DNA from: Spirochaeta africana DSM 8902
GTDB lineage: Bacteria; Spirochaetota; Spirochaetia; DSM-27196; DSM-8902
DNA: 64,000 nt
Direction of reading: 5' to 3'
Assembly (NCBI RefSeq): GCF_000242595.2
Contig: NC_017098.1
Coordinates: 2,499,501-2,563,500, forward strand
This document shows, piece after piece, positions 6,105-18,702 of this stretch (its first letter is position 1; each line of letters opens with the position of its first letter). Made by a program: the position numbers and the translations under genes. The notes beneath the pieces were generated by a model. The model was not told the DNA's origin. It did no database searches and saw only the letters and a program-made list of their open reading frames with translations.

Positions 6105-7793
6105 CTACTGCATGCGACGGACAAAAGCGTCGCCAAAGCCGCGTGAACGGAACCATACCAGCGCACTGCCCTTTTCGTCCTCATTGAGCGGACCAACGTA
6201 CACACGGTAGAGCGGCTGATCCTGATTACCGCTGCGGGTAACCGCACGCGGATAGCGCGGACCAAGGCTGTCGACAGCGGCCTTGGCGCCGGCAGGTGTC
6301 CCGAATGCCCCTATCTGCAGATAATAGTGATTCGCCTCCAGCGAGTCCACCATCGGCAGCAGTTCCTCGCCGCGAGCAGCAACGCGCGGTGCCGGCTCGG
6401 GTACCGGTTCAGGTTCGGGGGTCGGCTCTGGCTCTGGGGTTGCTGCCGGTGCGGGCTCCGGCTCCGCTTCCGGTGCTCGCGGCTCGGCCGGCTCAAGCCG
6501 AAAACTGCGACCGTTGCTAAGTCTGTCTTCCTCGGGTTGTACCCGCTGCACCGGTTCCTCGGGTTCCGATGGCAGCACAACACGGGTAGGAACCTCGGCT
6601 CGCGGCAGATCAGTTTCCGGCAGCGCGGGTTCATCGATACGCGGTGAGGCCAGATGATCGGCAGATTCCTCCCAGCCCGCCGGCAGTCCGGCAATCGGGA
6701 GCTCGGCATCCACTGCGGTGCGCTGCGGAACCAGACGGGCCATGCCTCGATCCAGTTCCGCCTGGGGCGGCAGACTGGCAGTTGGCAGTTCCCCATAGCC
6801 GTTGGCTGCAGCCTGCGGCTGGGGTCGGGGCAGGACTACCGGTCGTTCATCCGGATCAAAACTGGGGCGATACTGTTCGGCAGGGCGGCGCACAATCCTG
6901 CTGTCACCGTTCAGATCCCTGGGCTCCTCGGGAGCAGGGGCCGCATCATCGACTGGCTGCGGATCCCGGTCAAACTCGGGAACCGGTGCCGACTCGAGGC
7001 TCAAGCGGCGCTCGTCCACGGTACGGGCTGGTCGCGGCAGCGAGAACTCCGGCAGCTCATCAGGCTCATCAGCTGCGACAGACGGCTCCGGTGGATCCGC
7101 CGGCTCTTCCGGCATCGTAATCCGGTCCGGCACTGTCGGCGCCGGATCGGCCGGTTCAGGCTCACGAGCATCAGGCTCAACAGGATCAGCAGACTCTGCC
7201 GGTTCTGCGACAGCAGGATCTTCCATCGCCGGGGTTTCCGGACGGCGCGGGGATACCGTGATCGGGTCAGGAAATTCGTCGCGCGGTTGTCGTTCAACCC
7301 GGGGCTCAGCCGGGGCAGGATCACGCCCGGGGCGGCGGGTGCCATTCAAAGCGAAATATTCCAGATTCGGATCCCCCAGCCCTGCCGCAGGATTGATGTC
7401 CGGATCGGGATGAAACGGCAGATCGCTGAGAGGGCTTGAGGCTGTCATACCAGGCATCGAGACCGGAAGGGCACGAACCCGCAGCATCTCTCCGGAAGGC
7501 AGCCCGAGCCGTTCGGCGGCATTGGGCGAAAGCACCATAAAGACCCCGGAGACGGTTGACCTGCCGACTACAATCGCACGCGCAGTTCTGCCACTGGCAA
7601 GATCACGGACATCTACAATACTGTTGGGAGGGAATGCGTTGGTAGCAACATAGGTTCCCTGCTGAGGAAAATCAGCGGCGGCGCCAACCACGGCACCGCC
7701 CTCAAGAAATGCCTCACCGAACGAGGACAGCACGGGAAACAGCAGTGCGATCCCGGTTATGAGCAAAACTCCGATTGTACCTTTCAGTCTCAT
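6105..7793 (-). CDS. envelope protein with RlpA-like N-terminus and C-terminal SPOR domain
   Basis: Secreted protein of 562 residues, probably bound to septal peptidoglycan. Residues 1-25 form a signal peptide (MRLKGTIGVLLITGIALLF). Residues about 30-115 look like a double-psi beta-barrel of the RlpA type (GTYVATNAFPPNSIVDVRD, then a Gly/Ser/Val core). A long Pro/Glu/Asp-rich linker (about 120-480) is probably disordered and spans the periplasm. A SPOR domain (about 490-562) starts HYYLQIGAFGTPAGAKAAV and has LYRVYVGPLN; SPOR domains bind denuded glycan strands at division sites. ATG 7793 has GGAGGGAAGA upstream; an earlier in-frame ATG would put 22 charged residues before the signal peptide. 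It lies 16 bases after the secreted protein gene and is probably cotranscribed with it. Lytic transglycosylase activity is not shown. Confidence 0.8.
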   Translation of the reverse strand: MRLKGTIGVLLITGIALLFPVLSSFGEAFLEGGAVVGAAADFPQQGTYVATNAFPPNSIVDVRDLASGRTARAIVVGRSTVSGVFMVLSPNAAERLGLPSGEMLRVRALPVSMPGMTASSPLSDLPFHPDPDINPAAGLGDPNLEYFALNGTRRPGRDPAPAEPRVERQPRDEFPDPITVSPRRPETPAMEDPAVAEPAESADPVEPDAREPEPADPAPTVPDRITMPEEPADPPEPSVAADEPDELPEFSLPRPARTVDERRLSLESAPVPEFDRDPQPVDDAAPAPEEPRDLNGDSRIVRRPAEQYRPSFDPDERPVVLPRPQPQAAANGYGELPTASLPPQAELDRGMARLVPQRTAVDAELPIAGLPAGWEESADHLASPRIDEPALPETDLPRAEVPTRVVLPSEPEEPVQRVQPEEDRLSNGRSFRLEPAEPRAPEAEPEPAPAATPEPEPTPEPEPVPEPAPRVAARGEELLPMVDSLEANHYYLQIGAFGTPAGAKAAVDSLGPRYPRAVTRSGNQDQPLYRVYVGPLNEDEKGSALVWFRSRGFGDAFVRRMQ

Positions 7794-7809
7794 TCTTCCC
7801 TCCCCCGCG

Positions 7810-8319
7810 CTACCGCTGGTTCTGCCCCTGACGGATTGCATCAGCGGCTTGATCACCAATCATTGCCGCCAGTCTGCTGGCTGTGCGGCGCAGATCACCG
7901 TTCGCGCGGTGAAAATCATCCGGCTGCAGCCTGTGGTTCAGCAGTACCCGAGGTCGTTGGACATCAATCACCGAAAAACTCACGCTGCGCTCCAGTTGAT
8001 GTTCGGCATCCGCCATTCGCACCTGCACCAGGTAGTCTGCACCATCCTCGCGGGCATACCGCACGGCACTGTACTCCATCTGTACCGGCAATCGATCGTC
8101 GGCCGAGCCGTTAGCAGCGATAAATCCCTGTGGAACATCAGACCACACGATAAAACCGGCGTCGAACAGCTCACCGATGACCGCTCCCTCTACCAGCCCA
8201 CGGAACTGGCCGGCCTCACCGTCCTGTGCAACCGTGACTACAACCTGTTGCGCCCCGACGGTCGCGACAACAGCAAACATCCCGAGTATAAAACCAACTA
8301 TCCGTGCTGTATGTTTCAT
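7810..8319 (-). CDS. secreted protein of unknown function
   Basis: A 169-residue protein that I do not recognise. Residues 1-23 (MKHTARIVGFILGMFAVVAT) form a clear signal peptide with an Ala-x-Ala-like cleavage site before QQVVV. The mature part alternates short beta and helix segments (FRGLVEGAVIGELFDAGFIVW, DYLVQVRMADAE, SVSFSVIDVQRPRVLLN). This resembles small periplasmic proteins with a TolB-N/LpoB-like fold that detect or assemble in the envelope, but that is only a guess. It is first in a likely two-gene unit with the SPOR-domain gene, so an envelope role is the best inference. Confidence 0.6.
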   Translation of the reverse strand: MKHTARIVGFILGMFAVVATVGAQQVVVTVAQDGEAGQFRGLVEGAVIGELFDAGFIVWSDVPQGFIAANGSADDRLPVQMEYSAVRYAREDGADYLVQVRMADAEHQLERSVSFSVIDVQRPRVLLNHRLQPDDFHRANGDLRRTASRLAAMIGDQAADAIRQGQNQR

Positions 8320-8371
8320 CCCTTACAGGTTCGGCAGAATCCGGCGGTGACACAAGTCCATTTTTTCCGTG

Positions 8372-8400
8372 TTGCTACCCGCGAATGATCGTGATAGGCT
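8372..8400 (+). promoter_or_regulatory. candidate promoter of the NusG-like/CapD operon
   Basis: TTGCTA (8372-8377), a 17-base spacer and TAGGCT (8395-8400), with an extended -10 TG at 8392-8393. The predicted leader is about 12 bases, with no ribosome-binding site before the ATG at 8419. There is no room for a long 5' hairpin of the kind LoaP-type antiterminators use. Confidence 0.5.
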
Positions 8401-8418
8401 GGTTTCAGAAATATCAAC

Positions 8419-8988
8419 ATGAAAGTCTACATTTTGCAGGTTCACACCGGTTACGAACACCACACTGCTCAACGACTGCAGCAGTTGTCCCGCAGTATTA
8501 TCACGGACACCTGTCGTGTCGTCCTGCACTCACTCGACCGCGAGCTGCGTATCCGCGCCCGGGGGCAGCGTCGCCTCGTGCGGAAGCCGCTGTACCCCGG
8601 GTATATCTTCCTGGAATCAGACTGTCCGACTGACAACCTGCTGCAGCTGATCCAGCAGGTACCATCGGCGGTGCGGTTTCTGCAGGCCAACAGCGATATC
8701 ACCCCGGTTCGGCCGCAGGAGGAAACCATGCTGCGGCGACTGATGCAGTTCGGGCAGGTTATCCCGCGCTCACGGGTTGTACTGCAGCCCAAGCAGCGGA
8801 TCCAGGTGATACAGGGTCCGCTGCAGGGGCTTGAGGGGATCATTGAACGCGTAGATCGTCGGCGTGAACGGGTACGGGTACGGCTGGTTATGAGCAACAA
8901 GCCTTTCAGTTTTGATATCGGCATAGAGGTCGTCCAGCCGCACACTACGGACTCAGCCGTTGCGGCGGGATCGGGGGAGCAAGCATGA
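8419..8988 (+). CDS. NusG-family transcription elongation factor paralogue (RfaH/LoaP-like)
   Basis: A 189-residue protein with an N-terminal NGN domain (about 1-110; MKVYILQVHTGYEHHTAQRL, then YPGYIFLES) and a C-terminal KOW region (about 122-175; QRIQVIQGPLQGLEGIIERV). It is not the housekeeping nusG: it stands alone, without secE or ribosomal protein genes, at the head of a sugar-modification operon. Specialised NusG paralogues (RfaH, UpxY, LoaP) ride on RNA polymerase to help it through long polysaccharide or natural-product operons. The ATGA overlap with the next gene ties it to this operon. The specific recruitment element is not evident. Function as an operon-specific antiterminator is inferred. 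Confidence 0.8.
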   Translation: MKVYILQVHTGYEHHTAQRLQQLSRSIITDTCRVVLHSLDRELRIRARGQRRLVRKPLYPGYIFLESDCPTDNLLQLIQQVPSAVRFLQANSDITPVRPQEETMLRRLMQFGQVIPRSRVVLQPKQRIQVIQGPLQGLEGIIERVDRRRERVRVRLVMSNKPFSFDIGIEVVQPHTTDSAVAAGSGEQA

Positions 8989-10457
8989 TCGGAATGCGAA
9001 CACAGCGGGTATACATCCTGGGAGCCGGGATTGCCGGGGTATCGATTGCGAACGAGATTCGCCGCAAAGGGGTGTTCGGCGAGGTCGCGGCCTTTCTGGA
9101 TGATGACACTGCCAAAATCGGCACCAGGATTGAGGGCACACCAGTACTGGGACCAATCGAGGATATCCTGCCGCTGCTTGACAGCAGCCCCGGCGATGAA
9201 GCCCTGATTGCCATGCCGAGTGCCCCTCGTGAACGGCTGCGCAAGCTGTACGGCATGCTGGAGCAGATCGGTTTTTCCAGAATCCGTATCCTGCCCGGTA
9301 TTTCCCAGATTCTGGAGGGTGATGCCCATCTGATCCAGACCCGCGAGATCGATCCCCTGGATGTCCTGTCCCGCACGCCAGTCCAGATACATCTGCGCGA
9401 GTCGCTGGCATATCTGCGCGGAAAACGCGTACTGATTACCGGCGCCGGGGGGAGTATCGGCAGCGAAATTGCCCGCCAGCTGCTGAGCGGGGGCTGCGAA
9501 CGCATCTACCTGCTGGGACACGGGGAAAACAGCATCTATGAGATAGACCACGAACTGCGCATGCTTCAGAAGGAAGGGGTTGGTGAACAGGCCACCATCG
9601 TGCCGGTGATCGGCGAGCTGCAGGATGCCGACTACGTGCATTTCATCATGCAGCGGCTGCGTGCGGATGTCATCTTTCACTGCGCGGCGTACAAGCATGT
9701 GCCGCTTATGGAGGCCAATCCGGTCGCGGTAATCCGCAACAACGTCTTTGGTACCCGCAACCTGCTTGATGCAGCACGGGAGTACCCCGACTGCCGTATC
9801 GTCCTGGTTTCTACCGACAAGGTGGTAGCACCCTCAAGCGTATACGGGGCCAGCAAGCAGCTGGCGGAACAACTGGTTCTGCATGATGCTTCCGGCCGGC
9901 ATCTGGCTGTGCGCTTTGGCAACGTACTGGGGTCACGGGGAAGTATCCTGCCGTTGTTCAGGCGGCAGATCGAAAGCGGCGGGCCGGTTACCCTGACACA
10001 CCCGGACGCAACCCGGTTCTTTATGACGATTCCCGAAGCGGTCTCGCTGGTACTGAAGGCAGGCGGGGTTGGCAACGGCGGCGAACTGTATTTGCTGGAT
10101 ATGGGAGAACCGGTGCGCATACGGGATGTAGCCGAACAGCTGATCCGTTTTTACGGCTATGAACCGGATGTGGACATTCCTATCGACATTATAGGGCTGC
10201 GCCCCGGGGAAAAGCTGCAGGAAGCGCTATGGGATGACCATGAAACCCCCCAGCCAACCGAGTTCCCGCGGATTCAGCGTATTACCCGGACCCCCTGCCC
10301 TGCCGAACCGCTACAGCAGCTGCTGCAGGAACTGACACCGGTATGCACATTCGACCCCGCACAACCCCGGCTGTATCGCGATCGCCGGCGGCTGCGGGAT
10401 ATTCTGCGTCGCTACGTTCCGACCCTGCAGGAGGTACCCGATGAGCCGCGCTACTGA
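8985..10457 (+). CDS. CapD/FlaA1-type nucleotide-sugar 4,6-dehydratase
   Basis: A 490-residue SDR enzyme of the CapD family, which converts UDP-GlcNAc-type sugars to 4-keto-6-deoxy sugars. Residues 1-145 form a Rossmann-like regulatory domain (GAGIAGVSIANEI) without the transmembrane helices found in WbpM/PglF, so this copy should be soluble. The catalytic domain follows, with the NAD(P) motif GAGGSIG at 153-159, the STDK stretch and a YxxxK pair (Tyr287, Lys291 in VYGASK). Large WbpM-type relatives have Met at the Tyr position; the Tyr form is typical of the short FlaA1-type members (family knowledge from memory). It overlaps nusG-like by 4 bases and the aminotransferase by 17. A sugar product for glycan or flagellin modification is inferred. 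Confidence 0.85.
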   Translation: MIGMRTQRVYILGAGIAGVSIANEIRRKGVFGEVAAFLDDDTAKIGTRIEGTPVLGPIEDILPLLDSSPGDEALIAMPSAPRERLRKLYGMLEQIGFSRIRILPGISQILEGDAHLIQTREIDPLDVLSRTPVQIHLRESLAYLRGKRVLITGAGGSIGSEIARQLLSGGCERIYLLGHGENSIYEIDHELRMLQKEGVGEQATIVPVIGELQDADYVHFIMQRLRADVIFHCAAYKHVPLMEANPVAVIRNNVFGTRNLLDAAREYPDCRIVLVSTDKVVAPSSVYGASKQLAEQLVLHDASGRHLAVRFGNVLGSRGSILPLFRRQIESGGPVTLTHPDATRFFMTIPEAVSLVLKAGGVGNGGELYLLDMGEPVRIRDVAEQLIRFYGYEPDVDIPIDIIGLRPGEKLQEALWDDHETPQPTEFPRIQRITRTPCPAEPLQQLLQELTPVCTFDPAQPRLYRDRRRLRDILRRYVPTLQEVPDEPRY

Positions 10458-11652
10458 TGCCGAAAAGCCCGAACCGGTTCCATTTGGCAAGCCGTCGCTC
10501 GGAGTTGCCGAGGAGGACGCGGTGCTGCGCGTTATGCGATCCGGCTGGCTCACAACCGGCAGTGAGTGCCGGAGCTTTGAGCAGGAGTTTGCCCGTGCGG
10601 TAGACATGCCGCATGCGATTGCCGTTTCATCCGCCACTGCCGGTCTGCACCTTGCCCTGGAGGCGGCCGGTGTCAAACCTGGTGATCGTGTGGTGACCAC
10701 CCCCCTGACATTTGCTGCCACTGCCGAGGTAATCTGCAGCCTGGGCGCAGATCCGGTCTTTGCCGACATCGATCCGGACACGGGGAATATCTCCGCCGAA
10801 CGGGCGGCTCATGCGGTCGAGCAGAGCCAGGCAGCTGCCCTGATCCCGGTTCATCTGGGGGGGCTTACCTGCCAGATGCAGCCGCTGCAGGCGATTGCGT
10901 CCGGGTACCGCTGCAGCCTGATCGAGGATGCGGCACACAGCTTTCCCGGCGGCGATGAGCATGGGTATGCCGGCACCCAGAGTGATTTCGGGGTATACTC
11001 CTTTTATGCTAACAAGACCATCACCACCGGCGAGGGCGGGATGGTAGTTACCCGCGATACCGCGGCGGCCCGGCGAATGCAGCTGCTGCGCAATCACGGC
11101 ATCGATCGGGATGTATGGCATCGCTTTACCGATACCCGGGCCTCCTGGCGCTACGACATCACCGCCGCCGGGTTCAAGTACAACATGCCGGATCTGGCCG
11201 CAGCGATTGGCCGGGTACAACTCGGCAAAGCCCGGGAGCTGCAGCAGAAACGGCGCGCCATTGCCAACCGCTATCTGAATGAACTGCGAGACTGCGAATT
11301 CCTGCAGCTGCCGCCGGATGCCCCGGATCACTCCTATCATCTGTTCCAGATCCGGCTGCGAACCGGAATCCTGAGTATAGACCGTGACGAGTTCATCAAC
11401 AGACTGCAGCAGCAGGGGATCGGCACATCGGTGCACTACATTCCTTTGCATATCATGAGCTATTACCGGGATCGCTACGATCTGAAACCATCTGATTTCC
11501 CGCACGCACTGGACTGGTACGAGCGGTGTATCAGCTTGCCGATATATCCGGATTTGGAAGATTCCCAGATAGACCGTATACTGGATGCAGTGCGCGGCAT
11601 CGGCCGCTCCTGTCTGAAAGGCCTGACCGCCAGCAGCAACCGCCAGGCATAG
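10441..11652 (+). CDS. DegT/DnrJ/EryC1-family sugar aminotransferase
   Basis: PLP-dependent aminotransferase of 403 residues that normally acts on 4-keto nucleotide sugars, the product of the preceding CapD-type enzyme. Seen in the sequence: the substrate/PLP region AVSSATAGLHLALEAAG, the Asp-containing LIEDAAHSFPG motif (pyridine nitrogen contact) and the PLP Lys192 in FYANKTITTGEGGM. The C-terminal half contains IGTSVHYIPLH, typical of PseC/WecE-like members. The 17-base overlap with the dehydratase gene indicates tight coupling. The pair is equivalent to PseB/PseC or PglF/PglE logic (dehydrate, then aminate). I cannot tell the stereochemistry of the product. Confidence 0.88.
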   Translation: MSRATDAEKPEPVPFGKPSLGVAEEDAVLRVMRSGWLTTGSECRSFEQEFARAVDMPHAIAVSSATAGLHLALEAAGVKPGDRVVTTPLTFAATAEVICSLGADPVFADIDPDTGNISAERAAHAVEQSQAAALIPVHLGGLTCQMQPLQAIASGYRCSLIEDAAHSFPGGDEHGYAGTQSDFGVYSFYANKTITTGEGGMVVTRDTAAARRMQLLRNHGIDRDVWHRFTDTRASWRYDITAAGFKYNMPDLAAAIGRVQLGKARELQQKRRAIANRYLNELRDCEFLQLPPDAPDHSYHLFQIRLRTGILSIDRDEFINRLQQQGIGTSVHYIPLHIMSYYRDRYDLKPSDFPHALDWYERCISLPIYPDLEDSQIDRILDAVRGIGRSCLKGLTASSNRQA

Positions 11653-11671
11653 CGTTACGGAGGATACCCGC

Positions 11672-13825
11672 GTGGGACTGACGATAACCGATTTCTCACC
11701 AGTTTGCGTCTCTAATCTGACACGACCTGACATGCTGCATGCAGTCACGGTCCGGTCTCACAAGGCCCATGGACGCCTGCTGCACATTCGCACCCCGGAG
11801 CTGCCGGAGGGGTACCACCTGTTCACCGCGCGCGACCTCGGCACTGCCAACCTGATCGAGGTATGGGGAACCGAGGTTCCACTGTTTGCAGCCGAGGAAT
11901 CCTGCTACAGCGGTGAGCCGGTCGGGTTGCTGGTCGGCCCCGATCACGAGGTACTGCAGGAGCTGCTTGACCTTACCTCGGTCACCTTCGAGGAGCTGGA
12001 ACCCCAGTTCTCCCGGGAGGACATCGAAACACGACGCATTGTCCTGGAACGCCGCTTCGAGTCTGGTGATCCGGACAGCGACACCGCCGAGGGAACCCAG
12101 ACCATCGAAGGGGTCTATCGAACCGGCATTCAGGATCATCACTACCTCGAGCCCATGGGAGCCCTGGCAGAGCCTACCGCAACAGGGATGACGGTGTACT
12201 CCCCGTGTACGCACATCTTTATGGTCCGCGACATAGTTGCAGCGGTTGCCGGGCTGCCGCGAGCCGGGGTGGTGGTAGAGGCCTGCTTTCCCGGCGATGA
12301 CCTGGACGGGAAGCTGTGGTATCCAGCGATAATTGCTGCCCAGGCTGCATGGGCAGCCCGCACCCTGAACAGACCGGTTCGCATTCAGCACAATCATGCC
12401 GAGGATGCCCTGTACTCACCCAAGCGGGCCCCTATGACTATCCGGATGCTGACCGCTATCGGGGATGACGGCACCAAAAAAGCAGTGACAGCCGAGATGG
12501 ATATCGATATGGGCAGCTATCCGGTGGCAGCAGAAGCCGTGCTCGAACGGGCAATGCTGCAGCTCTGCGGGCGATACCAGCTTTCGTCACTGCAGATAAC
12601 CGGACGGGTTCTGAAAACCAACACCCCGCCGCTGGGTTTCTTTGATGGCTGGGGCGATGCAAGCGCCGCCTTTGCGCTGGAGACCCACTACAACCGGGTC
12701 GCCGAGGTGGCGATGGCCGATCCTGCCGAGTACCGTCGCAGCGCCCTGATCCCCGCCGGAGCGCGCCTGATAACCGGCGGTTTGATGCGGGAAAGCTGCA
12801 GCCCGCTGCGCTGTATGCAGGCGGTGATCACCGCCAGCGACTTTACCCGCAAGCATGCCGCTTACGAGCTGCAGCGCAAGCGGCGCCAGCACAACCAGTT
12901 CCAGGGGCAGGTTATGCGTGGTATCGGTCTGGCCCAGGTAAGCACGCCCCCGCTGCTGATCGGCAGCGGACGCAGCGGAAAACCGGCAACCGCCGGCATC
13001 CGGCTGGAAAGCGACGGCAGTGCCACCATTCTGACCTCGATGTATCCCGGCAGCGCCGGGGCCGAGCTGGCCTGGCGAACGGTAGTCAGCGAGACCCTCG
13101 CCCTGCCGCTGGCCCAGACCCGGCTTGCCGCACCGCGTACCGACAGTTGCCCCGATACCGGGCCGGAAACCCTGAGTCGCGGGATTACTATCTGCGCCAA
13201 AATACTGGAAACCTGTGCCCAGGCAATCAACAAGCGCCGTTTTCGGGATCCGCTGCCGATCGAGGTCCATCGATCGTTCCGCATGCCGCGTTCCTATCGG
13301 CAGGACAGCTCTGGCGCCACCGACCCTTATCCGCTGGCCGCTATTGGCGCGGCCGTGCTGGAGGTCGAGATCGAGCAGCGCACCCTGGATATCTCGATTC
13401 GGGGGATCTGGCTGGCGGTAGACGGCGGCAGGATTATCCAGCCTTCGGCGGCACTGCAGCGCCTGGAGCAAAACGTCTACAGTGCACTGGGATTCCTGCA
13501 CACCGAGGTTCTCGAGCTCCACCATGGCATGCTCTCGCCCAGCCATACGATTGGCTACCGCATACCGCGCTTTGGCGAATTCCCCGACCCCCAGATCCAG
13601 CTGCTGCAGCCCGACCGTAACGGCCCGCCCCTGGGTATCGGAGAACTGCCCGGGATGTGCATCCCGGCAGCCGGAATCCAGGCGATCAGCCAGGCATCAG
13701 ATGTGTACTTTGACCAGATTCCGATCTCGCCGGAGGTAATGTACCAGTATCGCAACGATGAACTGCCGGAAGCGGTCCAGCCTGCGGCAGTCGAGACGGA
13801 CCAGGAGAAGGAGGAACGGTCGTGA
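11672..13825 (+). CDS. xanthine-dehydrogenase-like molybdopterin subunit with degenerate cofactor motifs
   Basis: A 717-residue homologue of the large subunit of molybdenum hydroxylases (xanthine dehydrogenase, CO dehydrogenase, quinoline 2-oxidoreductase). The N-terminal substrate domain is present (AHGRLLHIRTPELPEG; CYSGEPVGLLV), then the cofactor region with TGIQDHHYLEPMGALAEP, close to the family QEHxYLEPxxALA. The pterin motif GGGFGGK is changed to GDDLDGK (208-214), and the RGFGxPQ segment to DGWGDAS (325-331). The catalytic Glu is kept: Glu658 in GIGELPG corresponds to GVGE. The start is GTG, with GGAGG upstream, 19 bases after the DegT gene. The stop overlaps the next gene by 4 bases. 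Mo-cofactor binding is doubtful; the enzyme may have a new role or act as a scaffold. Confidence 0.8.
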   Translation: MGLTITDFSPVCVSNLTRPDMLHAVTVRSHKAHGRLLHIRTPELPEGYHLFTARDLGTANLIEVWGTEVPLFAAEESCYSGEPVGLLVGPDHEVLQELLDLTSVTFEELEPQFSREDIETRRIVLERRFESGDPDSDTAEGTQTIEGVYRTGIQDHHYLEPMGALAEPTATGMTVYSPCTHIFMVRDIVAAVAGLPRAGVVVEACFPGDDLDGKLWYPAIIAAQAAWAARTLNRPVRIQHNHAEDALYSPKRAPMTIRMLTAIGDDGTKKAVTAEMDIDMGSYPVAAEAVLERAMLQLCGRYQLSSLQITGRVLKTNTPPLGFFDGWGDASAAFALETHYNRVAEVAMADPAEYRRSALIPAGARLITGGLMRESCSPLRCMQAVITASDFTRKHAAYELQRKRRQHNQFQGQVMRGIGLAQVSTPPLLIGSGRSGKPATAGIRLESDGSATILTSMYPGSAGAELAWRTVVSETLALPLAQTRLAAPRTDSCPDTGPETLSRGITICAKILETCAQAINKRRFRDPLPIEVHRSFRMPRSYRQDSSGATDPYPLAAIGAAVLEVEIEQRTLDISIRGIWLAVDGGRIIQPSAALQRLEQNVYSALGFLHTEVLELHHGMLSPSHTIGYRIPRFGEFPDPQIQLLQPDRNGPPLGIGELPGMCIPAAGIQAISQASDVYFDQIPISPEVMYQYRNDELPEAVQPAAVETDQEKEERS

Positions 13826-14301
13826 TACTCTCATTCATCCTGAACGGGGCCCCGGCCCAGACCGAAGCCTACCCGCATGTCGACCTGATGACCACCCTGC
13901 GGGATCGCTGCGGGATTACCAGTATTCGGCGCGGGGCCATCCAGCAGAACAGTGGCCTGTCGATGATCCTGATGGACGGATTGCCGGTCCCCTCGGTTCT
14001 GATCCCCTCCTTTCACGCGGAGGGCAGCGATATCATTACCTATGAAGGTGTAGCCAGCTCGGAGGAGTATCACGAAATCGTGCAGAGTTTCAGCCGCTCG
14101 AATATCCTGATCAACCCCCTGGCTCTGCCAACCCTGATACTGCTTACCTACTGGATTATTACCGAGAATCGGATGATACCCGAAAGCGAAGTCCGGGAAC
14201 TGCTGGGCGAGATAGCCTGCCGGGGCGGGGTCACCTCCCGCATCCTGCATGCAGTCCAGCAGGCACACCAGTACCGACGAATACGGATGCAGCATGAATA
14301 A
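13822..14301 (+). CDS. xanthine-dehydrogenase Fe-S subunit homologue lacking nearly all cluster cysteines
   Basis: A 159-residue protein, the exact size of the small 2x[2Fe-2S] subunit of molybdenum hydroxylases, and aligning with it almost without gaps. The framework is clear: ILNG at 6-9, TTLRDRCGIT at 24-33, LMDG at 50-53, ITYEG at 72-76, then EVRELLGEIACRG at 123-135. At the plant-type ferredoxin cluster the four Cys positions read Ala39, Ser44, Ser47 and Val59. At the second cluster (family QCGFCTPG and CRCTGY) they read Asn98, Ala101, Cys133 and Gly135. One of eight ligands remains, so neither cluster can form in the usual way. ATG overlaps the preceding stop by 4 bases. It is not a random pseudogene: the frame is open, coupled and full length. 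Confidence 0.82.
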   Translation: MILSFILNGAPAQTEAYPHVDLMTTLRDRCGITSIRRGAIQQNSGLSMILMDGLPVPSVLIPSFHAEGSDIITYEGVASSEEYHEIVQSFSRSNILINPLALPTLILLTYWIITENRMIPESEVRELLGEIACRGGVTSRILHAVQQAHQYRRIRMQHE

Positions 14302-15139
14302 GATCAGTCACCCGCCGGCCCGTCCATTCACCCTGCAGGAGGCGCTGCAGCTGCTGCGCCGGGATCCCGACAGCATCATTCTTGCCGGAAGTACCCACCG
14401 GCTCAGCAGCTCGCCGCCGCCAGAGTCGCAGCGACTGCCTCCGCCGCCTATCCTGAGTCTTGACCGTATCGAGGAACTGCGCCGGGTCAGTCGAACCGAC
14501 CGCTACCTTGAGTTCGGCAGCGGGGTAAGTCTGCAGCGGATCCTGCAGCTGGGACTGCAGATTCTGCCAGACCCCCTGCGCACATGCCTGGAAAGTGTTG
14601 GCACCCCGGGACTGCGTCGACTGGCCACCATTGGCGGTAACGTAATGATACCCGAAAGCACGATCGGCCTGGGTCTGGTACTGGCTACCCTTGATGGCAC
14701 CCTCGAGCTGCGACGGGTCGGCAGCAGTCGCCGACTGCCGGTGGCACGCCTCTACTCTCAGAACAGAAGCCTGGATGAAGGGGAACTGCTGACACGTATT
14801 CGCATCCCCAACAACTTTCCCACCCATGCCGTCTACAAACGCTTTGGCTCGCCCTACGACCACACCACTCACCCGCTGGGGGTTTGCGGGATCGCGACTC
14901 TGGAGAAGAATTCGGTAGAACGCTTTGTGTTCATTACCGGGGATATCAACCAGCCGCTTGTCCGCAACCGCGAGCTGGAAGCAGACATAGTGGGACAACG
15001 GGTTCCCTTTACCGCCAAAGAGTTCCAGGTGTTTCAGGAACGCTGGCACCAGACCCTGCTGACGCACAACCTGAGTGCGATTCAGATCGAGCGCAGCATT
15101 CGCATGTTTGTGTATTTTCTGACAGAGCTGCGCCCGTAG
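14294..15139 (+). CDS. xanthine-dehydrogenase FAD subunit homologue (CoxM/XdhB-like)
   Basis: A 281-residue protein resembling the middle, FAD-binding subunit of molybdenum hydroxylases. The family motif TIGGN is kept (in RLATIGGNVMIPE), as are GSGVSLQRIL and the GELLTRIRIP element of the C-terminal domain. The first FAD phosphate loop, usually AGGTDLL, reads LAGSTHRL and is weakened; the usual Asp after the TIGGN region is not seen. ATG 14294 was chosen because it overlaps the previous stop by 8 bases, like the other junctions here; an earlier in-frame codon at 14249 would give 15 more residues with no family match. It closes the six-gene operon. FAD binding is possible but not assured. Confidence 0.75.
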   Translation: MNKISHPPARPFTLQEALQLLRRDPDSIILAGSTHRLSSSPPPESQRLPPPPILSLDRIEELRRVSRTDRYLEFGSGVSLQRILQLGLQILPDPLRTCLESVGTPGLRRLATIGGNVMIPESTIGLGLVLATLDGTLELRRVGSSRRLPVARLYSQNRSLDEGELLTRIRIPNNFPTHAVYKRFGSPYDHTTHPLGVCGIATLEKNSVERFVFITGDINQPLVRNRELEADIVGQRVPFTAKEFQVFQERWHQTLLTHNLSAIQIERSIRMFVYFLTELRP

Positions 15140-15195
15140 GCGTCAGGCGCTGTCACGCGGATTCCTGCCGTGCGAACTCCTGACCGCTGCACGGG

Positions 15196-15224
15196 TTGCC
15201 AACCTGACCGATTGCTCATATAGT
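15196..15224 (+). promoter_or_regulatory. dnaE promoter, very short or no leader
   Basis: TTGCCA (15196-15201), a 17-base spacer and TATAGT (15219-15224). Ten bases separate the -10 from the ATG at 15235, giving a leader of about 3-4 bases with no real ribosome-binding site. The preceding 56 bases after the FAD-like gene show nothing else I can name. Confidence 0.65.
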
Positions 15225-15234
15225 TTGAGTACTC

Positions 15235-18200
15235 ATGCCGAACTTTGTACATCTGCACACCCATTCTGATTTCAGCCTTCTCCATGCCACTACACGTATC
15301 AAGGACATGGTTGCCCGCGCAGCAGAACTGAATATGCCGGCGCTGGCAATGACCGACCTTGGCAATATGTTCGGGGTAATCCACTTCTACACTGCCTGCC
15401 GCAAGGCTGGCATCAAACCGATCGTGGGTACCGAGGTCTATATTGCCCCGAACGGACGGCTGACCAAAGAGAAATTCGAGGACGGCAATCGCCTGTCACG
15501 CCTGGTATTGCTGGCTCGCAACCTTGAGGGCTACCAGAACCTGCTCAAGATTTCCACCATCGGCTACACCGAGGGCTTTTATTATAAACCTCGTATCGAT
15601 GACGAGGTGCTGGAACAGCACAGTCAGGGATTGATATGCCTGACCGGTCCACTATCCGGCGAGGTCCCGAACCTGATTGTCCGCAACCGGGTTGATGAAG
15701 CCCAGGCACGACTTGAATGGTACATCCGGGTCTTCGGGCAGGAGCATGTATTCGTCTGTCTGCAGGATCACAACATCCCGGATGAGAAGATCGTCAACCG
15801 CACCCTGATTGAACTCGCCCCCCGACTGGGCCTGCCGCTGATCGCCACCAACGATGTCCACTACCTGAACCGTGAGGATGCCGTAGCACAGGATGCCCTG
15901 CTGTGCATCGGCTCGCAGCGCAAGCGCAACGAGACCAACCGGCATCGTTTCCATGGCGACCAGTATTATTTCAAGACCGCTGAGGAGATGGCGCAGCTGT
16001 TCCCCGAGCAGCCCGAGGCCTTGGAGAACACCCTGAAGGTTGCCGGGCTGTGTGAGCTGGAGATACCCCAGCCCGGCCCGCTGCTGCCCGATTACCATAT
16101 CCCGCCCGATTTTGAAACACCGGACGACTACCTGCGCCATCTGACCTACGAGGGACTGCGCAGTCGCTACGGCGAGATTACCGAGGAGATTGATGCCCGG
16201 GCCGATTACGAGCTCGGGATTATCATCTCGATGGGTTTCACCGGCTATTTCCTGATTGTATGGGACTTTATCCGCTACGCCCATGACAACGACATTCCGG
16301 TTGGTCCCGGACGGGGCTCGGGTGCCGGATCGATAGTAGCCTATGCCCTGGCAATTACCGACATCGACCCGCTCAAGTACAGCCTGCTGTTCGAACGGTT
16401 TCTGAATCCCGAACGGGTCTCGATGCCGGATTTCGACATCGACTTCTGCTTTGAACGCCGCCAGGAGGTCATCAACTACGTCACCTCCAAGTACGGTCAT
16501 GACCGGGTCGGGCAGATCATTACCTTCGGAACCCTGAAAGCCAAGGCGGTAATCCGGGATGTCGCGCGGGTGCTGGATCTGCCGTACACCGAGGCTGATA
16601 TGATCGCCAAGCTGATCCCCGACGACCTGAAAATGACACTCCCCAAAGCCCTGGAGGTAGAGCCCAAGCTGCAGGAGCTGAGGGAACGTGGCGGCACCCA
16701 TCAGGACCTTATCGAGATCGGCCTGCGCCTTGAGGGGCTGCACCGCCATGCCTCTACCCATGCTGCCGGGGTGGTTATCGGCAAAGAGGTGCTGACCGAG
16801 TACGTGCCGCTGTACCGCGACCCCAAGACTGCCGCGATCTCTACCCAGTTCACCATGGACCTGCTGGAGCCCTGCGGCCTGGTAAAGATGGACTTTCTTG
16901 GCCTGAAGACCCTCACCCTGATTCGCAACACCGAGAAGCTGATCCGCGAGCGCGGGATCGCGTTTGATATCGAGCAGGTCTCGGAGGAGGATCCCGCCAC
17001 CTTTACCCTGCTTGGTGAAGGCCGCAGCATCTGCGTCTTCCAGTTCGAGAGTGACGGGATGCAGGACATCCTGAAAAAGGCCAAGCCCAGTCGCATCGAG
17101 GACCTGATCGCCTTGAACGCCCTGTACCGGCCCGGTCCGATGGACAACATCCCGCAGTTCATCGAGTCCAAATGGAACCCCGCCAGCATTACCTACCCCC
17201 ACCCTGACCTTGAACAGGTGCTCAAGGAAACCTACGGGGTAATTGTGTACCAGGAACAGGTAATGGAGATCGTCCAGATCATCGGCGGTTTCAGCCTGGG
17301 CCAGGCAGATATCCTGCGTCGGGCGATGGGAAAAAAGAAGGAACAGGAGATGGCACGCATGGAGGTCGAGTACCTCCAGGGAGCCCGCGAAAAAGGCATT
17401 GCCGAGGATACTGCCAAGAGCATCTTCGAGCTGCTGAAGCCTTTCGCCGGCTACGGTTTCAACAAGTCACACGCTGCTGCCTACTCTGTTCTGGCCTACA
17501 AGACCGCCTACCTCAAGGCAAACTACCCGGCCGAATTCATGGCTGCCAACCTCACCAACGAAATCAACAACCCGAAAAACATGGTGAAGTACATGGCCGA
17601 GGCCCATGACATGGGGCTGGAAATTCTCCCGCCGGACATCAACACCTCGAAGAAGCATTTCAGTGTAGTCGATGGCAGAATTATCTACGGTCTGGTCGGG
17701 ATAAAGAATGTCGGCAGCAGCGCTGTTGATGCCATCCTGCATGAACGGGAGGCCAATGGCCCCTTCAGTTCGATGGATGAGTTCCTGGAGCGCATCGACA
17801 TGCGAACTGTAAACCGCAAGGTAATCGAGGTATTGATAGTAACCGGGGTGTTCGACTGCTTTGGCAGGGGGCGCCGACCGCTGCTGGAATTCCTTGGCCA
17901 GCTGGCCGATATTGCGGCTCAGAAACGCAAGAACCGGGAAGAGGGACAGGTAAGCCTGTTTGCCGACTCCGAGGAGGAGGAATTCCCCGAACTTGATTTT
18001 GCCGGCGTACAGGAGTTTCCGCTGCGCGAACTGCTGCAGCACGAAAAAGAGATCCTGGGGTTTTACTTTTCCGGCCACCCGCTGGACGACTACCGCGAAA
18101 CCTGGCTGCGTACCTCTACCTGCAATCTGGCCAGGATGGAAACACTTCCCGGCGAAAAGGAGGTCACCCTGCTGGGGCTGGTTACCTCTCTGCGGGTGAT

Positions 18201-18702
18201 CTTTACCAAGCGGGGATCCCAGATGGCGATCGGTACGATAGAGGACTACAACGGTAGCATCGATTTTGTTATGTTTGCCGAGGCCCTGGAGCCATACCGT
18301 GATCTGCTGCAGGAGGATGCAATCCTGGGCGTGCTGGGAAAGATCGATACCTCGCGTGACCGGGTGCAGATTGTCGCCAGCGAGATCAGGCTGCCCGACG
18401 AGCTGGATGAGCGTGATATCGGGGTAGTGCATATCCGGCTGCGCCAGGACGGCACCAGCGAAAAGCAGCTGCATGAACTGCGGGCATTCCTGTCCAACGA
18501 TGAGCATACCGGCTGCTGTCCGGTATTTTTACATATCCCCCGCGACCCGAAGCCCGAAGTAATTATCGAGGTGTCGGCCGAGTTTCGCACATCTTCCCGC
18601 CCCGAGGTACTGCAGTCTCTTCGTACTTTTCCGGCAGTCGAGCGTGTATGGCGGGAGATCGAAGCACCCAAGCCGCAGGAAGCGAGTCCTGCACTGACCT
18701 GA
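15235..18702 (+). CDS. dnaE: DNA polymerase III subunit alpha
   Basis: Replicative polymerase catalytic subunit, 1155 residues, the normal DnaE size. The N-terminal PHP domain starts MPNFVHLHTHSDFSLLHATT, with ALAMTDLGNMFGVIHFY and VGTEVYIAP. The C-family polymerase core has GPGRGSGAGSIVAY and the catalytic PDFDID motif with Asp401 and Asp403 (the same numbers as in E. coli). Further conserved stretches are RPGPMDNIPQFI, YQEQVMEI and FNKSHAAAYSVLAY. The C-terminal part has HhH and an OB-fold region (EVTLLGLVTSLRVIFTKRG). It is followed 10 bases later by yggT. Its own promoter separates it from the preceding glycan/XDH-like operon. Confidence 0.98.
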   Translation: MPNFVHLHTHSDFSLLHATTRIKDMVARAAELNMPALAMTDLGNMFGVIHFYTACRKAGIKPIVGTEVYIAPNGRLTKEKFEDGNRLSRLVLLARNLEGYQNLLKISTIGYTEGFYYKPRIDDEVLEQHSQGLICLTGPLSGEVPNLIVRNRVDEAQARLEWYIRVFGQEHVFVCLQDHNIPDEKIVNRTLIELAPRLGLPLIATNDVHYLNREDAVAQDALLCIGSQRKRNETNRHRFHGDQYYFKTAEEMAQLFPEQPEALENTLKVAGLCELEIPQPGPLLPDYHIPPDFETPDDYLRHLTYEGLRSRYGEITEEIDARADYELGIIISMGFTGYFLIVWDFIRYAHDNDIPVGPGRGSGAGSIVAYALAITDIDPLKYSLLFERFLNPERVSMPDFDIDFCFERRQEVINYVTSKYGHDRVGQIITFGTLKAKAVIRDVARVLDLPYTEADMIAKLIPDDLKMTLPKALEVEPKLQELRERGGTHQDLIEIGLRLEGLHRHASTHAAGVVIGKEVLTEYVPLYRDPKTAAISTQFTMDLLEPCGLVKMDFLGLKTLTLIRNTEKLIRERGIAFDIEQVSEEDPATFTLLGEGRSICVFQFESDGMQDILKKAKPSRIEDLIALNALYRPGPMDNIPQFIESKWNPASITYPHPDLEQVLKETYGVIVYQEQVMEIVQIIGGFSLGQADILRRAMGKKKEQEMARMEVEYLQGAREKGIAEDTAKSIFELLKPFAGYGFNKSHAAAYSVLAYKTAYLKANYPAEFMAANLTNEINNPKNMVKYMAEAHDMGLEILPPDINTSKKHFSVVDGRIIYGLVGIKNVGSSAVDAILHEREANGPFSSMDEFLERIDMRTVNRKVIEVLIVTGVFDCFGRGRRPLLEFLGQLADIAAQKRKNREEGQVSLFADSEEEEFPELDFAGVQEFPLRELLQHEKEILGFYFSGHPLDDYRETWLRTSTCNLARMETLPGEKEVTLLGLVTSLRVIFTKRGSQMAIGTIEDYNGSIDFVMFAEALEPYRDLLQEDAILGVLGKIDTSRDRVQIVASEIRLPDELDERDIGVVHIRLRQDGTSEKQLHELRAFLSNDEHTGCCPVFLHIPRDPKPEVIIEVSAEFRTSSRPEVLQSLRTFPAVERVWREIEAPKPQEASPALT

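Follow-up and report, generated by a model that had tools for sequence, protein, structure and literature searches.

The gene at 13822..14301 (+) of the window, the 64,000-nucleotide stretch of Spirochaeta africana DSM 8902 DNA analysed here (NC_017098.1, positions 2,499,501 to 2,563,500), encodes a predicted XDH-type small subunit in which seven of the eight cysteines that would hold two [2Fe-2S] clusters have been replaced, and it is the middle gene of a large-small-FAD subunit trio whose large subunit is devoid of Moco motifs. The favoured reading, with a probability of roughly 0.62, is that the trio forms a Moco-free heterotrimer of the XDH fold that is under selection, in which the small subunit would be structural and flavin would be the only recognisable redox cofactor left. 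An earlier note on this DNA covered the small subunit only; the loss of Moco motifs from the large subunit, the conservation of the trio and the recurrence of cluster loss lay outside it.

Cluster ligands and predicted fold of the small subunit

The small-subunit gene encodes 159 aa from a GTG start, and a Shine-Dalgarno-like, putative ribosome-binding site, AGGAGG (13809..13814, +), is located 7 bases before this start. The product matched Pfam Fer2_2 (5.7e-9), the NCBIfam models glyceraldDH_gamma (1.2e-19) and XdhC (5.3e-15) and solved XDH-type small subunits (4zoh_C at 2.2e-15). These matches bear out the assignment of the ORF to a small ferredoxin-like subunit made in the earlier note, and they show that the product truly belongs to the XDH-type small subunits.

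When the protein was aligned with 17 orthologues from the same order, the ligand columns corresponded to window residues 39, 44, 47, 59, 98, 101, 133 and 135, which are exactly the residues at which the loss of seven of eight cluster cysteines had been claimed. The codons of residues 39-59, covering the former first (Fer2) cluster with A39, S44, S47 and V59, are at 13936..13998 (+), and those of residues 98-135, covering the former second (Fer2_2) cluster with N98, A101, C133 and G135, are at 14113..14226 (+). Cysteine was present in all eight columns in 17/17 syntenic orthologues and in one of eight in S. africana, where neither cluster site retains more than one of its four ligands. Of the positions at which 70% or more of 73 relatives agree, the window protein kept 20 of 26 non-ligand columns and 1 of 8 ligand columns (Fisher p = 0.002), indicating that the ligand loss is not due to chance. 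The alignment reported as gap-free is so for 1t3q_A (0 gaps), and one gap each was found against 4zoh_C and 5y6q_A.

A comparison of a predicted structure with the CoxS-type fold had been proposed as a check, and the AlphaFold2 model (pLDDT 86.6, pTM 0.84) resembled both CoxS 1n60_A (TM 0.84) and the nicotinate dehydrogenase small subunit 3hrd_D (TM 0.86), with a VIA-align Z of 20.7 and an rmsd of 2.1 over 155 residues against CoxS 1n60; since the input consisted of the window protein and 74 relatives, mostly with eight cysteines, these values speak for compatibility with the fold and are not independent proof of it. Together with the ligand loss, the model supports the proposal that the small subunit keeps the CoxS fold without iron-sulfur clusters, the absence of iron being a prediction.

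The large and FAD subunits and the Moco-less trio in spirochaetes

The large-subunit gene (11672..13825, +) encodes 717 aa with matches to MoCoBD_1 (5.2e-45) and MoCoBD_2 (3.6e-23). GGFGGK, RGFGxPQ and GQG, which we take to be the Moco-binding segments of the large subunit, were all absent in comparisons of it with solved enzymes and the canonical spirochaete XDH L060: PGDDLDGK was found at the place of GGFGGK, DGWGDAS at that of RGFGxPQ, and GQG was gone. The overall fold is predicted to be kept (pLDDT 86.1; TM 0.84 to 3etr_C). The FAD-binding subunit (14294..15139, +) matched FAD_binding_5 (1.3e-26); its likely start at 14294 overlaps the small-subunit stop, and the longest ORF runs from 14249. 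It carries IGGN and, in place of AGGT, AGST with one residue changed, so the flavin motifs appear largely kept. XDH-type folds or family matches were thus found for all three subunits, for the FAD subunit by sequence only, and by homology the three would be expected to form a complex and to bind FAD.

The Moco-less large subunit was observed in 79/80 named loci, the exception being Selenomonas L129, and among 248 loci, same-genome duplicates included, 239 were Moco-less and 9 canonical (at least two of the three motifs); since profiles or patterns of this subfamily were used to collect the loci, these fractions should not be read as unbiased frequencies among XDH relatives. In 137 genomes the presence of a Moco-less large subunit was checked by sequence. 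The window protein scored 901 bits against the trio profile, compared with 714-1057 for full-length same-order trio members and up to about 540 for other paralogues, a match that is partly by construction because the profile was built with the window sequence included. As judged from the motifs, the loss of the Moco site in the spirochaete trio is established. In a large-subunit tree of 52 sequences the 7 canonical rows formed one group (100/100); this tree is unrooted, so it allows, but does not show, that the Moco site was lost only once. A Moco-less large subunit still with GQG was observed in L093, whose group adjoins the canonical rows, and L093 is possibly an intermediate between the two types. 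The large-subunit ORF of L059 (907 aa) contains a long Ala/Glu-rich insertion at about residues 137-149 of the window protein. In-frame TGA codons in some large-subunit matches had raised the possibility of selenocysteine; they vanished once the matches were placed by profile and probably reflect match ends overrunning the stop.

The S. africana genome (3,285,855 bases, 99.98% complete) contains one large subunit and one Fer2_2, and profile searches of it for the MoaA C-terminal domain, MoeA (MoeA_N) and MoaC were negative; each of these families matched in 11/14 control genomes. Among 41 same-order genomes, MoeA was found in 17 and MoaC in 20. Among 389 spirochaete genomes with a completeness of 90% or more, 250 gave a large-subunit match at 1e-100, canonical ones included, and 115 contained MoeA, with both in 64, the large subunit only in 186 and MoeA only in 51. 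MoeA was missing from 98 and present in 39 of the 137 Moco-less carriers, and three of the 8 carriers of a canonical large subunit (G163, G062, and G057) were likewise without a MoeA match, so the absence of MoeA from draft genomes is a weak marker. Of the 20 genomes listed as having no large-subunit match, 17 are from family f12 (0.9-1.8 Mb), in which the trio seems to be missing altogether.

The trio of the window follows a NusG paralogue heading the gene run (8419..8988, +; Pfam NusG 7.3e-12), a capD-type nucleotide-sugar dehydratase (8985..10457, +; Pfam Polysacc_synt_2 9.5e-103) and a DegT/DnrJ/EryC1 aminotransferase (10441..11652, +; Pfam 2.3e-116), and is followed by dnaE (15235..18702, +; an ORF with homologues at the same place in relatives), yggT and recG, the names dnaE and recG being our assignments from protein sequence. 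The order large-small-FAD subunit beside capD-degT and dnaE is thus found in the window. NusG homologues lie upstream of capD in many relatives, and the paralogue may be a dedicated antiterminator of the capD-degT-trio run. A 209-aa ORF with no Pfam match lies at 7759-8388, between a SPOR gene and the NusG paralogue. Scans of 8300-15300 for promoters and terminators gave numbers near the shuffled means.

Twenty relative regions were taken, 17 of them with capD, degT or dnaE anchors (L043-L059), the other three being short contigs (L034, L040) and the non-syntenic canonical XDH L060. In the anchored relatives degT was upstream of the trio in 17/17 and dnaE after it in 13/17 (counted by eye); in the remaining four the contig ended first (L048, L056) or no dnaE was on the stretch (L051, L052). 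On the fetched stretches of the 80 named loci, degT was found in 63, capD in 58, dnaE in 42 and degT or dnaE in 71. In the three f17 genomes (L220, L223, and L224) the trio stands beside ligA, adjoined by dnaE in two, and the fetched stretch has neither capD nor degT.

Recurrence of cluster loss and constraint on the trio

Among the 137 genomes, both cysteine sets of the small subunit are present in 122, the first is lost or broken in 6, a full second set is missing in 4, both are lost in 2, and in 3 the small subunit is absent from the stretch. These counts were made with a regular expression allowing CC, because a Treponema group (L229, L241, L244, L250, and others) has CC instead of CxC at the last two ligands of the second cluster and is under-counted by alignment columns. 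Both sets were lost only in S. africana and in the distant G261 (L220, L213; a single contig of a distant family), where the loss is total and the trio adjoins dnaE and ligA, with capD-degT not on the stretch. In the single contig G086 (L219, L208; 1,139,633 bp), which we take to be Treponema pallidum, the first-cluster ligands read HNSY and the second-cluster cysteines are kept. In two named loci, L126 and L127, most of the second set is gone, and one cysteine of the first is missing as well. An apparent second-site loss in G205 and G376, two of the four genomes without a full second set, was rejected since the small-subunit sequences are short, L193 of G376 ending at the contig edge and L217 of G205 stopping early. 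Iron scarcity in soda lakes was not supported as a cause: in the loci with CSSed in their names, presumably from soda-lake sediments, every complete small subunit has its cysteines.

To compare divergence, median identities to other families were determined. The small subunit of the window had the lowest value of 18 rows (25.8% vs 40.5% among the others), and the large subunit (33.8 vs 35.6), the FAD subunit (35.9 vs 35.8) and the neighbours dnaE (59.5 vs 61.4) and capD (63.9 vs 62.6) were close to the others. The divergence was mainly in small-subunit residues 39-62 (25 vs 50%) and 96-138 (16 vs 37%); residues 1-38 had hardly diverged (34 vs 37%), and 63-95 and 139-156 less than the cluster segments. 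In G261 the small subunit was 25.8-32.2% identical to three family members, whose identities to one another are 38.5-66.9%, and its large and FAD subunits were no lower than those of family members, one close pair excepted. These comparisons indicate that both cluster sites disappeared in two distant lineages, with the rest of the complex remaining constrained, a pattern from which the cluster loss in the small subunit is judged not to be ordinary decay.

The window large subunit departed at 0/34 columns conserved in at least 90% of 59 relatives, and at the 80% level at 9/65 (median of the others 5, range 0-16). Three of these nine departures are QWP (residues 180-182), lost in the window, which points to a possible relaxation of the former pocket; together with the AGST motif this may be early relaxation.

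It is improbable that the trio of S. africana is a slowly decaying, functionless remnant of a lost molybdenum enzyme. The absence of Moco genes, the vanished cofactor sites and a small subunit that is the most divergent of 18 are what such a remnant would display, but the three ORFs are intact and overlapping (stop-free chance P = 1.3e-9, 0.004 and 1.7e-4 for the large, small and FAD subunits, that of the small subunit referring to random sequence of the same composition), the codon-position GC of the trio genes resembles that of the neighbours, the large and FAD subunits show the same degree of conservation as their counterparts in relatives, and the gene order is the same across families.

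Explanations of the complex and comparison with known systems

Under the favoured reading, an ancestral spirochaete hydroxylase with Moco, [2Fe-2S] clusters and FAD would have lost its Moco site, the three-gene unit being kept; most lineages retained both iron-sulfur sites, and in the window lineage both were lost too, with the fold and the partner subunits under normal constraint. The small subunit would then have a structural part, linking the large subunit to the flavin subunit, and flavin would be the sole known family cofactor that could remain. The complex may be a flavoprotein or have a non-redox role, in either case a job not needing molybdenum. Because the Moco-less version is common to relatives across the phylum, the complex seems to have been given another job, and we consider it rather likely that a spirochaete molybdenum hydroxylase became a molybdenum-free complex with a new job, its redox centres shed lineage by lineage, with S. 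africana as an end point that has flavin at most.

A narrower form of this explanation, overlapping with it, is that the complex takes part, alongside capD and degT, in envelope-glycan synthesis as an oxidoreductase with flavin (elsewhere with iron-sulfur clusters and flavin), whose substrate might be, for instance, a nucleotide sugar or a lipid-linked sugar. The constancy of degT upstream and the NusG paralogue heading the run are in favour of such a role, but gene order by itself does not prove a common pathway, and the f17 loci, which have ligA beside the trio and no capD-degT on the fetched stretch, weaken an exclusive glycan role, leaving this proposal tentative and on balance unlikely. 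Binding of another metal or cluster by the small subunit through serine, asparagine or partner-supplied ligands would fit the serines at two ligand positions and the one cysteine kept; we regard it as highly improbable, since Ala, Val, Asn, Ala and Gly are not usual iron ligands and conservation within the small subunit is lowest in the cluster segments. That the trio is an ordinary XDH obtaining Moco from elsewhere is hardly credible despite the overall XDH fold, with three Moco motifs gone and both electron-transfer clusters missing.

If the Moco-free heterotrimer is confirmed, the trio would represent a large family of pseudoenzyme-like character that descends from a well-known metalloenzyme, has natural cluster-free variants and is kept even in a 1.1-Mb genome, and the XDH architecture could serve something other than molybdenum catalysis. 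Members with eight cysteines, half-stripped and fully stripped members would make the function of the complex and the part played by electron transfer directly testable.

In the open-licence literature searched, no description of a Moco-less XDH trio in spirochaetes was found, and term searches of PMC5956850, PMC8525777, PMC12236494 and PMC4511686 gave no relevant passage. The spirochaete Moco-less XDH-like trio is not a named family and is described here. In PMC4403809 and its correction PMC5951579, TPASS_0079 and TPASS_0081 of Treponema pallidum are named xanthine dehydrogenase, a name that the loss of the Moco motifs makes very unlikely for the trio proteins. G086 shares with the window the order capD-degT-LSU-SSU-FAD and the lack of a MoeA match, and differs in having lost the cysteines of the first cluster and kept those of the second.

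Subunit folds and sizes, the arrangement as three separate genes and, for the most part, the FAD subunit motifs are common to the window trio and to CoxLSM, XdhABC and the glyceraldehyde oxidoreductase 4zoh. Unlike these systems, the window trio is without the Moco motifs and the iron-sulfur ligand set of the small subunit, and no Moco pathway was found in its genome. With the spirochaete capD-degT-linked Moco-less trio, the window shares the gene order, the motif loss in the large subunit and the flavin subunit, whereas it has lost both of the cysteine sets that most of the checked genomes keep.
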